Assembly (NCBI GenBank): GCA_021228405.1
Contig: JAJQRF010000002.1
Location: 744,001 to 808,000 of the forward strand
DNA from: Pyrinomonadaceae bacterium
GTDB lineage: Bacteria; Acidobacteriota; Blastocatellia; Pyrinomonadales; Pyrinomonadaceae
DNA: 64,000 nt
Direction: 5' to 3'
The position numbers and the translations under genes are program-made. Numbering within the stretch: the stretch's first letter is position 1; every line of letters begins with the position of its first letter. Below the pieces are notes generated by a model. It was not told where the DNA came from and ran no database searches. It saw only the letters and a list, made by a program, of their open reading frames with translations. Below are positions 5,563-11,764 of this stretch, one piece after another.

Positions 5563-8500
5563 ATGACTGGAATTTCCGAAAAAGAGCAATTTATTGCAAA
5601 TTACGATTTTGACCTCGGTGTCGTCGGGTTTAAATATTCCGACTTGTTTGATGCCGTAAAACTCAAAGAATTGGCGGAGAAGTTTTACGATGAAGTAAAA
5701 CAGGAAAATCCGCTCGTCGGCGATGCGCTCGTCAAATATATCGAAGCACGCGGCGAAGGTTTTGAAAAACGCGTCGAATCAAATATTTTGACCGATTCCG
5801 CGCCGTATCTTTCGCGTTTTGTCGCCAAAATGTTCGGCATCAACAAAGAACGCGAACAACTTGAAAAAGAGATTCAGGAACAAAATCCGATCTGGAAATA
5901 CAAATTTTTCGTCCAACGCCGAGCCGCTAAAAAATATGCGGCAGACAAACTCGCCGATCTGAACGAAACCGAACTGACGCAGGCGATCAGGGAATTAAGC
6001 TTTGCGTCTTTCGACGAAACATTGATCTATGATGAAGAACTGGCGATTTCCTATGTTGTTGACAAGCTCGTTCAAGCCGAAGAAGTTTTAACGAAAAGTC
6101 AGGAAATAACGGCTGAAATTCAGGAAACACTGAATAAAATCTCATCGGCTTACGACAAATTGAAGGACAAAACCTTCGGCAAAGTCTTTGAAAAATTCGT
6201 GGTCGAAACCGAAGGGGTCGGCGAGATCGTGGCGGTCAAAGCCGCGCTTTCGATCTTTGAGGCGTGGTCGGCGATCCAGTTTCACGATCGCAAAAAGAAA
6301 TGGTATTCGTTCAGAGTTCCCCATCCGCTCGATTACCAAAATCTCGTGCATTTGATTCATCCCGAACCGAAACTGCACAACATTATGCGCGGAAAAGATG
6401 AAGCAATGCGCCGCCGCGACGGGTTTAAATTGACCGACGACCGCGGCACTTTGCGCGATTCGCTTTTTGAAACCGATTATTGTCTGATCTGCCACGAACG
6501 CGACAAGGATTCGTGTTCGACGGGTTTGCGCGAAAAAGACGGGAGCGCGAAACGCAATCCTTTAGGCATCAAAACGGAAGGCTGTCCGCTCGATGAAAAA
6601 ATCTCGGAAATGCACCTGATGAAACGTCAGGGCGATTCGATCGCGTCTTTGGCGTTGGTTACGATCGACAATCCGATGTGCGCCGGAACGGGTCATCGCA
6701 TCTGCAACGACTGTATGAAAGGCTGTATTTTCCAAAAGCAAGAGCCTGTCAACATTCCGCTTGCCGAAACCGCGACGCTGACCGACGTTCTGAAAATGCC
6801 TTACGGTTTCGAGATTTACAATTTACTGACGCGCTGGAATCCGCTTAACGCCAAACGCCCGTATCAGTTGCCGTATAACGGCAAAAATGTTCTCGTCGTC
6901 GGTTTGGGTCCCGCCGGCTACACGCTTTCGCATTATCTTTTGAACGAAGGTTTCGGTGTGATCGGCGTTGACGGTCTGAAGATCGAACCGCTTCCGAACG
7001 AATGGACGGGCGATCTCGGAAAAACTTATCCGAAGCCGGTCAAAGACATCTCGGAAATTACCGACGAGCTGGACGAAAGAATTTTGTCGGGCTTTGGCGG
7101 CGTTTCCGAATACGGAATCACGGTTCGCTGGGATAAAAATTTCTTGACGATGATGCAGTTGATGTTATTCCGCAGAAAGCGTTTCCGCGCTTACGGCGGC
7201 GTTCGTTTCGGCGGAACGTTTACGATCGAAGATGCTTGGGAATACGGTTTCGACCACATCGCAATCGCCACCGGCGCAGGTCGCCCGACGATCGTGCCGA
7301 TGAAAAATAATCTGATTCGCGGAATCAGACAAGCGAGTGATTTCCTGATGGCTTTGCAACTTACGGGTGCGTTTAAGAAAGACACGCTTTCAAATTTGCA
7401 GGTTCGGCTTCCGGCAATCGTCATCGGCGGCGGTTTGACGGGAATCGACACGGCGACCGAGATTTTCGCTTATTACCCGGTTCAGGTCGAAAAAATGCTC
7501 GAAACTTTTGAAGCGATTTGTGAAGATCGCGGCGAAGAAGCGGCTTGGACGGCGTTTGATGAAGAAGAGAAAAAAGTTTTCGGCGAATTTCTCGTTCACG
7601 GCAAAGCGATTCGCGAAGAAAGAAAACGTGCATCGGAAGCAGGCGAACAGCCGAATTTCGTTCCGCTCATCCAATCCTGGGGCGGCGTTTCGCTCGTTTA
7701 CCGCAAACGTTTGCAGGATTCGCCCGCATATCGTCTGAATCACGAAGAAATTCAAAAAGCTCTGGAAGAAGGGATTAATTTTATCGAATTGATGTCGCCG
7801 ACCGAAGCTGTTCCCGACGAATACGGTGCGATCAAAGCGTTGGTTTTTGAAAAGCAGAATTACGATGCCGAAACCGGAAAATTTTCGCGGGAGAACGAAT
7901 TTGAAACTCTGCCCGCAAGAACAGTTTGCGTCGCGGCGGGAACTTCGCCGAACGTGATCTACGAAAAGGAAAAACCCGGCACATTCAAGCTCGACGAATG
8001 GCGGCAATTCTTTGAACCGTTTGAAGTCGTCAAAAACGGCGACGGTAAACTTCACGCCGTCGAATCGAAATCGGGCTTTTTCACGTCTTACGAAAAGGAC
8101 GGAAAATTCATTTCATATTACGGCGACAATCACCCGAAATATGCTGGAAACGTCGTCAAGGCAATGGCTTCGGCAAAACACGGCTACGAAAAGGTCGTCG
8201 AAATTTTCGCCGATGAATTAGCCAAAAGAGGCGCGTTGCCGCAAGCCGAAAAGGATGCGATTTTTGATAGGCTCGAAGCCGTTTTGGACGAACAGATTCG
8301 CGCTTATGTCGTCAAAGTCGAACGCTTAACGCCGACGATCGTTGACGTGATCGTAAAAGCTCCGCTCCAAGCGCGAAAATTCGAGCCGGGACAATTTTAC
8401 CGTTTGCAGAATTTTGAAACGAATGCCCCGATTGTCGCCGGCAAACGTCTGATGATGGAAGGTTTGGCATTAACGGGCGCGTGGGTTGACCGCGAAAAAG

Positions 8501-9270
8501 GCTTGCTTTCGATGATCGTTTTGGAAATGGGAACTTCCTCGCGGCTCTGTTCGCTTTTGAAAGAAGGCGAAGAAATTCTCGTCATGGGACCGACCGGAAC
8601 ACCGACCGAAATTCCCGAAAACGAAACCGTTCTGCTCGCGGGCGGCGGTTTAGGAAACGCGGTTTTATTTTCCATCGCCAAGGCTTTGCGCGAAAATCAC
8701 AACAACGTGATCTATTTTGCGGGCTACAAAAACGGCGCGGATTTGTTCAAGCGCGAAGAGATCGAAAATGCGACCGACAAAGTGGTTTGGGCTTCGGATT
8801 TCGGCGACGAAATTCAGCCGAATCGAACGCAGGATGCGCATTTCAGAGGCAATATCGTGCAGGCGATGATCGCTTATGCCGAAGGTAGTTTAGGCGAGCA
8901 AACGGTTGATCTGAAAGACGTTGACCGCATCATCGCAATCGGTTCGGACAGAATGATGAACGGTGTCAAAGAAGCGCGTTATACTGCGCTGAAACCTTAT
9001 CTCAAGGAAAAGCACACCGCGATCGGTTCGATCAACTCGCCGATGCAATGTATGATGAAGGAAGTTTGCGCGCAATGTCTGCAACGCCACGTCAACCCGC
9101 ACACGGGCGAGGAATTTTTTGTTTTCTCGTGCTTTAATCAGGACCAAAATCTCGATTTCGTCGATTTCAAAAACCTTAACGACCGCTTGAGAGCAAATTC
9201 GATTCAGGAGAAGCTCTCGAATATGTGGCTCGATAAAGTTTTTAAGAACGACGATTTGAAGAATTTTTGA
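5563..9270 (+). CDS. single-chain Nfn-like flavin/iron-sulfur oxidoreductase (GltD-like plus PyrK/FNR-like)
   Basis: This 1235-residue protein joins modules usually found on separate subunits. Residues 1 to about 300 are helical and not recognised. Residues 307-388 carry eight cysteines (C307, C310, C318, C341, C373, C381, C384, C388) in the arrangement of the [4Fe-4S] N-terminal region of GltD / NfnL. Two dinucleotide-binding folds follow, VVGLGPAGYTLS near 447 and VIGGGLTGIDTA near 620. From about 910 a ferredoxin-reductase fold of the PyrK/NfnS type begins (FEPGQFYRLQNFE; LLAGGGLGNA), ending in a [2Fe-2S] motif C1163-x5-C1169-x2-C1172-x17-C1190. NfnAB catalyses reversible electron bifurcation between NADH, NADPH and ferredoxin, but whether this chain does so is inference. 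It heads an operon whose next gene starts 15 nt later. No Shine-Dalgarno precedes the ATG; a TATAAT at 5537-5542 suggests a very short leader. Confidence 0.85.
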   Translation: MTGISEKEQFIANYDFDLGVVGFKYSDLFDAVKLKELAEKFYDEVKQENPLVGDALVKYIEARGEGFEKRVESNILTDSAPYLSRFVAKMFGINKEREQLEKEIQEQNPIWKYKFFVQRRAAKKYAADKLADLNETELTQAIRELSFASFDETLIYDEELAISYVVDKLVQAEEVLTKSQEITAEIQETLNKISSAYDKLKDKTFGKVFEKFVVETEGVGEIVAVKAALSIFEAWSAIQFHDRKKKWYSFRVPHPLDYQNLVHLIHPEPKLHNIMRGKDEAMRRRDGFKLTDDRGTLRDSLFETDYCLICHERDKDSCSTGLREKDGSAKRNPLGIKTEGCPLDEKISEMHLMKRQGDSIASLALVTIDNPMCAGTGHRICNDCMKGCIFQKQEPVNIPLAETATLTDVLKMPYGFEIYNLLTRWNPLNAKRPYQLPYNGKNVLVVGLGPAGYTLSHYLLNEGFGVIGVDGLKIEPLPNEWTGDLGKTYPKPVKDISEITDELDERILSGFGGVSEYGITVRWDKNFLTMMQLMLFRRKRFRAYGGVRFGGTFTIEDAWEYGFDHIAIATGAGRPTIVPMKNNLIRGIRQASDFLMALQLTGAFKKDTLSNLQVRLPAIVIGGGLTGIDTATEIFAYYPVQVEKMLETFEAICEDRGEEAAWTAFDEEEKKVFGEFLVHGKAIREERKRASEAGEQPNFVPLIQSWGGVSLVYRKRLQDSPAYRLNHEEIQKALEEGINFIELMSPTEAVPDEYGAIKALVFEKQNYDAETGKFSRENEFETLPARTVCVAAGTSPNVIYEKEKPGTFKLDEWRQFFEPFEVVKNGDGKLHAVESKSGFFTSYEKDGKFISYYGDNHPKYAGNVVKAMASAKHGYEKVVEIFADELAKRGALPQAEKDAIFDRLEAVLDEQIRAYVVKVERLTPTIVDVIVKAPLQARKFEPGQFYRLQNFETNAPIVAGKRLMMEGLALTGAWVDREKGLLSMIVLEMGTSSRLCSLLKEGEEILVMGPTGTPTEIPENETVLLAGGGLGNAVLFSIAKALRENHNNVIYFAGYKNGADLFKREEIENATDKVVWASDFGDEIQPNRTQDAHFRGNIVQAMIAYAEGSLGEQTVDLKDVDRIIAIGSDRMMNGVKEARYTALKPYLKEKHTAIGSINSPMQCMMKEVCAQCLQRHVNPHTGEEFFVFSCFNQDQNLDFVDFKNLNDRLRANSIQEKLSNMWLDKVFKNDDLKNF

Positions 9271-9285
9271 TCTGTTGAATTTAAT

Positions 9286-10245
9286 ATGAAGAACAATCCG
9301 ATTCAATTTGCCGTTGTCCGTGAAGACCCGCAGATTGAAATGGATATTGTCGGTAAATATAAACTGAAACGTGCAACGCTCATCGGTTCGGGCGGTTGCA
9401 CGTTTTTTTGTTTGAAAGCGATGAATCCTGAAATTGAAATCACTCTGATCGAACCGAATCCGTCGCAGATCAAACTCGTCGAAGAAAAAAATAACGCATT
9501 GCAAACTCTCGAAAAAAAAGATTTATACCGAAAATTCGGCGTTGGTTGTGCGGATGACGAAAGTTTGATCGAAGGCGGAAATTTTGAATCTTTGTTTCGC
9601 CAGTTCAGACTTTTCATACGGGAATTTATTGTTTCCGGAAACGAAATTGAAAACGCGTTCAGGAAAAATTCACCGCAGATTTGGCAGGAAGTTTTCAAAC
9701 ATCCTTACTGGCAAGCGGCATTCGATCTTTTTTTTTCCGATTCGATTCTGGTCACGATGTTCGGCGAAGCGGCAATTCAGCACGCGCCGAAAAATTCTTA
9801 TCCGTCTTATTTTCGCGCGGTGATGGAAAAAGGTCTGCAAAGAGAAAATGCCGATAAAAATTACTTTTTACATCATATTTTTCTCGGACATTATTTGGCG
9901 GACGAGAACGCTTTGCCTTATTATCTGGTTAATTTACCGACCGATTTGAAGGTTGAGATTTTTCACGGTTTCGCGCAGGATTTCAAGAAATTTACGGGCA
10001 AACAATTAGTTCATTTTTCAAACATTTTCGATTGGTGCGATGAAAAAATCGTCAAAGAAATAATCGCATCGGCGGCGGAAAATCTAGAAAAAGGAAGCGT
10101 TGTGGTTTTTCGTCAGTTGAATAACTGTAAAAATTACCGCGAATTTTTCGGGCAAAAATTCAAATGGGCGGAAACAAGCGAAATCGTCGAAAAAGACCGC
10201 AGTTTGTTTTATGAGAAAATAGAGATCGGGGAAAAAATCTTATGA
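9286..10245 (+). CDS. DUF3419 / BtaA-like SAM-dependent (aminocarboxypropyl?) transferase
   Basis: The 319-residue protein opens with FAVVREDPQIE, then a Rossmann SAM site (ATLIGSGGCTF at about 30-40) followed by the acidic strand end LIEPNPSQ (54-61), and it has the late HFSNIFDW block (243-250) and a VVVFRQLNN strand. These are the landmarks of DUF3419, the family of BtaA, which moves a 3-amino-3-carboxypropyl group from SAM to diacylglycerol for betaine lipids. Many DUF3419 members are not BtaA, and no BtaB-like N-methyltransferase is present, so a different acceptor is likely. It starts 15 nt after the Nfn-like gene and overlaps the next gene by 4 nt (ATGA), implying translational coupling. 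Confidence 0.72.
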   Translation: MKNNPIQFAVVREDPQIEMDIVGKYKLKRATLIGSGGCTFFCLKAMNPEIEITLIEPNPSQIKLVEEKNNALQTLEKKDLYRKFGVGCADDESLIEGGNFESLFRQFRLFIREFIVSGNEIENAFRKNSPQIWQEVFKHPYWQAAFDLFFSDSILVTMFGEAAIQHAPKNSYPSYFRAVMEKGLQRENADKNYFLHHIFLGHYLADENALPYYLVNLPTDLKVEIFHGFAQDFKKFTGKQLVHFSNIFDWCDEKIVKEIIASAAENLEKGSVVVFRQLNNCKNYREFFGQKFKWAETSEIVEKDRSLFYEKIEIGEKIL

Positions 10246-10973
10246 CTTTGAAAGAATTGATCGAACAGGTTTTGAAAGATACGAAATATTCCGAAAATCC
10301 TTATTTTGTAAATTTACGCGAAAAAACCTTTGAAAAAGATGACTTTTGCGAAACACAAATCCAGTTTTTTTACGCTGTGATCTTCTTTAGTCGTCCGATG
10401 GCGGCACTTGCCGCAAAAATTCCGACACCCGAACTCCGGCTCGAAGTTTTGCGAAACGTTTGGGAAGAACACGGCGAAGGCTCGCTTTCGCACGGTCACG
10501 GCACGACTTTTCTGGAGTTTCTGAAACGACTCGGAAATATCAGCGAAAACGAGGTTCACCGGCGCGGATTATGGGCAGACGTGCGGATTTTTAACACGAC
10601 CTTATCGGGTGTTTCGGTTTTGGACGACTTTATTATAGCGGTCGGTGTTTTGGGAATGATCGAGCGAATGTTTTCCGAAATTTCCGCCTGGATTGGAAAG
10701 GGCGTGATCGAAAACGGATGGTTGACCGAAGATCGGATGATTCATTACAAACTGCACGAAAAACTGGACATTAAGCACTCTGACGATTTTTTCAAAATTC
10801 TTGAACTACCGTTTCAAAAATCCGCTGAAAATCGTTATCTGATCGAACAGGGCTTGCGGCTCGGCGCAACTCTTTTCAATAATTTATACGCAGGTTTGTG
10901 GAGTTCGCGGAAAACCCGCTGGATTCTCGACGCGCCTTTCGTGACCTCAAACGCCGCCGATTATATTCCATGA
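10242..10973 (+). CDS. haem-oxygenase-like diiron oxidase/oxygenase (HDO, 'iron-containing redox enzyme')
   Basis: At 243 residues this all-helical protein matches the TenA/UndA-like HDO fold. Likely metal ligands are visible: E76 and H84 in a WEEHGEGSLSHGH segment, an acidic pair near E141/E146 (IERMFSEIS), and the signature H172-x3-D176-x2-H179. Characterised relatives (UndA, BesC, the SznF central domain, CADD) use a labile diiron centre and O2 to oxidise or cleave amino acids or fatty acids; substrate cannot be read from sequence. Both ends overlap neighbouring genes by ATGA junctions, so it is made in fixed proportion with the DUF3419 and GNAT-like proteins. A thiaminase (TenA) role is less likely because the TenA active-site cysteine context is absent and no thiamin genes are near. 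Confidence 0.78.
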   Translation: MTLKELIEQVLKDTKYSENPYFVNLREKTFEKDDFCETQIQFFYAVIFFSRPMAALAAKIPTPELRLEVLRNVWEEHGEGSLSHGHGTTFLEFLKRLGNISENEVHRRGLWADVRIFNTTLSGVSVLDDFIIAVGVLGMIERMFSEISAWIGKGVIENGWLTEDRMIHYKLHEKLDIKHSDDFFKILELPFQKSAENRYLIEQGLRLGATLFNNLYAGLWSSRKTRWILDAPFVTSNAADYIP

Positions 10974-11764
10974 TCGAGATCAAAGTTTTACAAAGAAAAA
11001 ACTTTCAGGAATACAGCGCACGGCTTCAGGAATTTGAAAATGTCGCCGAATATCCATACGGTGACGACTTTTTCAAGCTCGATCATGGCGAAAACTATTT
11101 TGCTTTTTTCGAGCGTCTGGGCGAACCGCTTTTTCACGTTGCGCTGGACGAAAACCGCGTTATTGCTTGCGCGGCAGGCGTTTTGCGGAATCTGAAAATT
11201 GGAGAAAAGGAAACTAAAGCGTGGTATTTATGCGATCTCAAGGTGGATAAAAATTACGCTCTGCATAAAATTCCGGCGAAACTTTTCAGAAAAAATCTTT
11301 TTTCCAATTATTTGAAATGCTCACGCGGTTATGCCGTTTCGATGAATCCTGCGAAAGGAAAAAACCGCGTCGTCAAGCTCATCGAACGATTCAGATGGAT
11401 TCCGATTCGTTACGCGGGAAAACTGAATTTTTACAGTTTTGACGAATCGGAAGCACAAAATTTTCATAACGAACTGGAAGCCGCGCTCGGCAAAATTTCC
11501 TATCTTTCGCTCAGAGGCAAAAAAGATTTGATTATGAAAAGCACCAATTCGCGTTTGCCGCTTTTTCACATTCAACACGGCGAAATGGCAACTTCGGCAA
11601 TGCCTGAACCTGCTGAAAACGGAACTTATATGATTTGCAGTTCCGAAAACTCCGCGCTCGATGATTTGCTTAAAAATAGATTTCAAATTTCCGCAACCGC
11701 CAGCATTTTGGCGCATCGGATGAACCCGAAGGACTGGAATTTCATTCTGACGAGCGATATTTAA
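10970..11764 (+). CDS. GNAT-like acyltransferase, last gene of the operon
   Basis: I place the start at ATG 10970, which overlaps the preceding stop as ATGA, rather than at a more upstream ATG that would overlap the diiron gene by 76 nt. The 264-residue protein has an N-terminal half resembling a GNAT fold: a strand HVALDENRVIACAAGVLRNL, then WYLCDLKVDKNY and a helix that would bind acyl-CoA pyrophosphate. The C-terminal half (from about residue 165) is not recognised and may be a second, degenerate GNAT domain. The canonical R/Q-x-x-G-x-G/A loop is not clear, so catalysis is uncertain. Its stop overlaps the stop of the converging asparaginase gene. Confidence 0.6.
   Translation: MIEIKVLQRKNFQEYSARLQEFENVAEYPYGDDFFKLDHGENYFAFFERLGEPLFHVALDENRVIACAAGVLRNLKIGEKETKAWYLCDLKVDKNYALHKIPAKLFRKNLFSNYLKCSRGYAVSMNPAKGKNRVVKLIERFRWIPIRYAGKLNFYSFDESEAQNFHNELEAALGKISYLSLRGKKDLIMKSTNSRLPLFHIQHGEMATSAMPEPAENGTYMICSSENSALDDLLKNRFQISATASILAHRMNPKDWNFILTSDI

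Follow-up and report, generated by a model that had tools for sequence, protein, structure and literature searches.

A horizontally transferred three-gene cassette in a Pyrinomonadaceae bacterium and the candidate biosynthetic pathway that it encodes

Do a relative of the first enzyme of betaine-lipid synthesis, a haem-oxygenase-like diiron protein and a GNAT-like acyltransferase work together, and if so, what might they make? The question is raised by a 64,000 nt stretch of a Pyrinomonadaceae genome (contig JAJQRF010000002.1, positions 744,001 to 808,000), hereafter the window, in which the genes for a DUF3419 protein, a haem-oxygenase-like diiron protein (HDO) and a GNAT protein are joined by two 4-base ATGA overlaps, at 10242-10245 (DUF3419/HDO) and 10970-10973 (HDO/GNAT). 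The original prediction, made from the sequence of the window, had placed these three ORFs and their joins, and our analysis confirmed the coordinates. The features of the trio are as follows.

9286..10245, + strand: DUF3419 protein of 319 aa, predicted to transfer aminocarboxypropyl from SAM; BtaA-like, but placed in a clade of its own (Pfam PF11899, E=1.2e-18; clade split from BtaA with support 100/98; model pLDDT 95.7)
9388..9399, + strand: SGGC motif (S35-C38) of the DUF3419 protein, common to the trio proteins and BtaA (among trio sequences S35 and G37 in 29/29, G36 and C38 in 28/29; among BtaA-type sequences 21-22 of 22)
10030..10035, + strand: D249-W250 motif of the DUF3419 protein, also found in BtaA (29/29 trio sequences; among BtaA-type sequences D in 19/22 and W in 22/22)
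10242..10973, + strand: HDO with ligands E76, H86, E141, H172, D176 and H179 (Pfam PF14518, E=3.4e-16; ligands invariant in 32 homologues; profile matches to CADD, HrmI and BesC)
10970..11764, + strand: predicted double-GNAT, N-myristoyltransferase-like acyltransferase of 264 aa (model pLDDT 93.2; top PDB matches N-myristoyltransferases, E about 1e-7)
11759..11761, + strand: C-terminal Ile264 of the GNAT protein, a candidate catalytic carboxylate (same end column in 28/28 complete homologues: 27 Ile, 1 Leu)

Conserved co-occurrence in other genomes had been proposed as a check of the predicted unit, and was found: profile searches of the ORFs in each locus identified the complete trio at 28 of 34 loci, a proportion that describes close HDOs and not all HDOs, as the loci were collected via this protein. 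Thirty-three of the loci came from a genome-collection scan with an alignment of three HDO sequences (those of the window, of genome G023 and of Mycobacterium riyadhense), to which the mycobacterial locus was added. The hosts of the trio belong to the Acidobacteriota, Proteobacteria, Planctomycetota, Elusimicrobia and Patescibacteria, with Hahella, Endozoicomonas and Rickettsiaceae among the carriers, and one copy lies on a Mycobacterium plasmid. As all three genes are present at so many loci over many phyla, their linkage is not due to chance. G023, which holds the sole close DUF3419 orthologue among 116 relatives (67% identity), has the trio in the same order as the window, but with gaps where the window has overlaps, and on the M. 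riyadhense plasmid the DUF3419, HDO and GNAT genes and an RND/MmpL transporter gene are annotated consecutively. A genome scan with DUF3419 alone as the query returned nothing. In a sample of 321 genomes from the class of another trio host (L037), all three trio-type DUF3419 genes, one of them newly seen, had both partners, and the 17 lower-scoring DUF3419 loci that were checked had no HDO or GNAT gene within 1.5 kb.

Six of the 34 loci lack the full trio. Three of them are cut by contig ends (L048, L055 and L058) and three are real exceptions, two with the HDO alone (L059 and L060) and one in Legionella worsleiensis (L045:8816-10716) with a DUF3419 gene, an HDO with an open frame but missing start, and no GNAT gene. 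The Legionella DUF3419 protein is of the Rickettsiaceae/Mycobacterium type and stands beside an HDO of the other clade; this locus is a mosaic or decaying copy of the trio. The three exceptions would suit the view that the genes are neighbours without a common pathway. That view is scarcely credible in the face of the 28 complete loci, the several gene orders in which they occur, the complete association in the 321-genome sample and the correlated divergence of the three proteins, whose pairwise distances gave r values of 0.84, 0.69 and 0.63 (0/2000 permutations), a correlation that owes part to the shared ancestry of the hosts. The three enzymes almost certainly serve one pathway, and the original prediction that they belong together, probably in an undescribed pathway, draws support from this linkage, from the SAM-enzyme motifs and from the HDO ligands. 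A shared pathway had been judged doubtful should the genes not be neighbours elsewhere, or should the SAM site or the diiron ligands be missing; at the level of sequence, the neighbours, the SAM-site motif and the ligands are all present. The order of steps that had been read from the gene order did not hold up: some lineages have the order DUF-HDO-GNAT and others DUF-GNAT-HDO, and at one locus (L043) the GNAT gene is divergent on the opposite strand, so the order of reactions is not readable from the order of genes.

The extent of the unit also required revision. An Nfn-like oxidoreductase gene, which ends 15 bases upstream of the trio, had been named as the gene behind which it stands; we reject its membership of the unit, as the gene belongs to the core genes of the family (55 of 97 relatives carry it), has no link to the trio elsewhere and in G023 lies on another contig than the trio. 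The gene (window 5563-9270) encodes a 1235-aa Nfn/GltA-like fusion, a core gene in many relatives; the nearest NCBIfam model, PRK06567, scored below cut-off, and Pfam and NCBIfam scans gave no clear family match for the N-terminal part. The trio of the window is inserted between core genes. In a relative, genome G019 (L092), a capsule-type gene, the Nfn-like gene, an asparaginase gene and recN are ordered as in the window with the trio absent, representing an empty site. This empty site, the GC content of the trio (42.4% vs 46.7% for the window) and the presence of its hosts in scattered, distant phyla point plainly to horizontal acquisition. Carriage by phages was rejected, as a search of the phage collection with an HDO of this family found no match, and a role in anti-phage defence was rejected as no PADLOC match was obtained. 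A promoter scan found sites no more commonly than in shuffled sequence.

The DUF3419 protein matched PF11899 with 67.9 bits against a curated cut-off of 28.2. Comparison of 29 trio sequences with 22 BtaA-type sequences showed that both groups keep EDP, SGGC, an acidic residue at position 56, N58, K68, N192, P211, D249-W250, R276, D304 and Y309. In contrast, the trio sequences differ from the BtaA type at R12, T39, Q61, E101, A163, G201, S245-N246, Q277-L278-N279 and S306, many of which are positions invariant in BtaA, and are approximately 90 residues shorter, missing a segment found in 22/22 BtaA-type sequences. In a tree with long branches, in which placements inside the groups are unsure, the trio sequences fell on one side of a branch with support of 100/98 and the BtaA type on the other. 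The structural model had weak fold matches to SAM enzymes, mostly methyltransferases, and among these were MtNAS and CntL (E about 0.02-0.03); a PDB sequence search gave no match to NAS or CntL, and BtaA has been reported to be non-homologous to the NAS, CntL and MccD/MccE transferases (PMC10491745). We infer that the trio protein probably keeps the donor chemistry with a changed acceptor, and the retained motifs make transfer of the 3-amino-3-carboxypropyl (ACP) group its probable activity. A further, intermediate DUF3419 group occurs in proteobacterial genomes (L113-L117), with scores of about 95-107 bits against the trio profile and no HDO or GNAT gene within 1.5 kb.

Ordinary synthesis of the betaine lipid DGTS, in which BtaA is the first enzyme, had already been discounted as an explanation, and our data agree, as the trio DUF3419 lies outside the BtaA clade, with differing residues, and is linked to an HDO and a GNAT instead of having BtaB alongside. 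The accompanying statement that no betaine-lipid methyltransferase is present stands for the operon, and no BtaB N-methyltransferase recurs beside the trio elsewhere, but it does not hold for the genome. A second, canonical BtaA-type gene is located on contig C4 of the same genome, followed approximately 470 bases downstream by a class I methyltransferase gene, a possible BtaB (L010:9410-11803), and this pair suggests that betaine lipids are synthesized there. A variant membrane-lipid pathway would be a closer relative of the known system: the DUF3419 protein would form diacylglyceryl-homoserine as BtaA does, and the head group would be N-acylated by the GNAT and oxidized by the HDO instead of being N-methylated by BtaB, to yield a new phosphorus-free membrane lipid. 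The retained BtaA motifs, the N-myristoyltransferase-like fold of the GNAT, a membrane protein in the trio operon at four loci and the lack of a further DUF3419 gene in five of the six trio genomes tested besides that of the window would all fit such a lipid. Set against these are the shortened and altered DUF3419 protein, the canonical BtaA-type gene already in the genome of the window, and the rarity and mobility of the trio, which suit a specialized product better than a structural lipid. We regard the variant lipid as rather unlikely.

The second protein of the trio scored above the cut-off for PF14518 (Haem_oxygenas_2), and its six ligands align with the ligand positions of CADD and HrmI. 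They fit the set of three histidines and three carboxylates seen in most of the HDO superfamily (PMC13108848), and include, as H172, D176 and H179, the H-x3-D-x2-H motif that had been noted earlier. The trio HDO thus shares a fold family and ligand set with CADD, HrmI, BesC and UndA, but is only 20-25% identical to solved HDOs in profile alignments, and none of the characterized HDOs has been seen with its partner genes. Judged by the conserved ligands, activation of O2 is very probable. The substrates of known HDOs are mostly amino acids or fatty acids (PMC13108848), and the ACP group or an acyl chain would suit equally well. Synthesis of pABA was ruled out: CADD, a self-sacrificing pABA synthase, sacrifices Tyr27 and uses Lys152 as amine donor (PMC11965152), and the corresponding positions are hydrophobic in the trio HDOs (F22 and I151 in the window).

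The third protein had been described as a GNAT-like acyltransferase, and this assignment was both upheld and refined. Pfam GNAT models matched the protein of the window only below cut-off (E about 0.05), and the G023 orthologue matched Acetyltransf_9 with E=4.4e-5. The confident structural model (pTM 0.88) has a two-GNAT fold, for which the best Foldseek matches were N-myristoyltransferases (TM <=0.59), followed by Eis-like double GNATs, with most of the chain covered. Because the rmsd to N-myristoyltransferases is high (8-14 Å), we read the modelled resemblance as one of common architecture and not of close similarity. By sequence, neither Pfam nor NCBIfam scans indicated membership of the N-myristoyltransferase family, no N-myristoyltransferase chain appeared in the PDB profile search, and the trio protein, at 264 aa, is shorter than the matched chains of about 370-390 aa. 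Besides the two GNAT halves, which it shares with N-myristoyltransferases, the protein has an exact C-terminus of the kind that would be expected for a carboxylate base. Such a base is described for human NMT1, in which the carboxylate of the last residue, Gln496, serves in catalysis (PMC7048800). All 28 complete homologues stop at one alignment column, a 29th, cut by its contig, having been excluded from the count. As this exact, tail-less end is kept in such diverse sequences, the best explanation is that the carboxylate has a role in catalysis or in structure. The fold and the invariant end together indicate that the protein is likely to acylate an amine; use of a long-chain acyl group is a more tentative suggestion. 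The GNAT of the window lacks the RG that many homologues retain in the loop after strand 4, in the region of the CoA loop, and this loss may change how it binds CoA.

A Pfam scan of 50 neighbouring genes found no family that recurs beside the trio, and because no extra neighbour recurs, the three genes suffice without a further partner. A recurrent fourth gene was accordingly rejected, the nearest candidate being a multi-spanning membrane protein encoded in the trio operon at four loci (L031:8268-9029, L032:7302-7826, L033:1413-2213 and L042:11413-12006), which had no match in the genome of the window and none in Pfam, against which three of the four proteins were scanned. Exporters adjoin two loci only, an MmpL gene after the trio in L025, on the M. 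riyadhense plasmid, and HlyD and MFS genes after the trio in L056. Other neighbours were seen at single loci: a PLP decarboxylase gene upstream (L045), an amine oxidase gene overlapping DUF3419 (L052) and an asparagine-synthetase-like gene (L055). These neighbourhoods fit a core that is sufficient by itself, to which individual lineages add tailoring and export.

The neighbourhoods also bear on two further explanations. The product could be a soluble metallophore or antibiotic, for which ACP would be transferred onto an acceptor with an amine or thiol, a group that binds metal or is reactive would be formed by the HDO, and the GNAT would add a short acyl chain. Transfer of SAM-derived ACP or aminopropyl groups towards specialized products is recurrent in metallophores and related pathways, such as those of NAS, CntL (staphylopine) and MccD/MccE (microcin C) (PMC10491745), HDOs make chalkophores and other specialized metabolites (PMC13108848), and exporters lie 3′ of the trio at L025 and L056. 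Unlike those pathways, the trio has no recurrent peptide, peptide-synthetase, opine-dehydrogenase, TonB or metal-uptake gene beside it, and we consider such a product unlikely. Alternatively, the DUF3419 protein could act on SAM alone, cyclizing or hydrolysing it to form a lactone, an azetidine or homoserine, with the GNAT acylating the free amine to give an N-acyl-amino-acid signal and the HDO modifying the chain or the amino acid. No acceptor-supplying gene recurs beside the trio, and methyltransferase-fold enzymes are known to cyclize SAM (PMC10491745); nevertheless, no regulator recurs either, intermolecular transfer is the known activity of BtaA relatives, and signs of a cyclase are absent from the sequence, making this route very improbable.

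Our data are most consistent with a model in which the trio is a biosynthetic cassette, complete in itself and spread by horizontal transfer, whose three enzymes make one product. The model builds on the observed family memberships, the conserved motifs and ligands, the folds of the first and third proteins, the conserved linkage and the horizontal origin. The DUF3419 protein would move ACP from SAM onto a nucleophilic acceptor, with release of methylthioadenosine. The double GNAT would acylate an amine, most likely the ACP alpha-amine, from an acyl-CoA or acyl-carrier donor, perhaps with the carboxylate at its own C-terminus serving as base, as in N-myristoyltransferases, and the HDO would use its dimetal site and O2 for an oxidation, either of the amino-acid part or of the acyl chain. 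The result would be a tailored, N-acylated amino-acid-type compound, a small molecule or a lipid, and probably exported. We infer the identity of the transferred group, the N-acylation, the long acyl chain, the order of steps and the export, and assign a probability of roughly 50% to the explanation as a whole. It is conceivable, with somewhat less confidence, that this widespread, undescribed three-enzyme pathway leads to exported ACP compounds of a new class, N-acylated and tailored by oxidation, with a family of bacterial small-molecule acyltransferases that work like N-myristoyltransferases through their own C-terminal carboxylate.

Searches of the open-access literature on DUF3419, on PF11899/PF14518, and on HDOs with BtaA or aminocarboxypropyl brought up no account of the trio. 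All three enzymes come from known superfamilies; their combination, the DUF3419 clade and the N-myristoyltransferase-like partner are undescribed in the open-access papers searched. If the model is true, DUF3419 chemistry would extend beyond betaine lipids, an unassigned HDO subfamily would gain a function and a bacterial N-myristoyltransferase-like family of acyltransferases would be defined. A mobile cassette of three genes is small enough to be expressed whole, so that its product can be found directly.

Lastly, HDOs 36% identical to that of the window occur without DUF3419 on Streptomyces linear plasmids, each time 130 bases 3′ of a gene for an EF-hand protein (L026:8262-9648, L027:8262-9660 and L028:8262-9660), and represent a separate conserved HDO pair.
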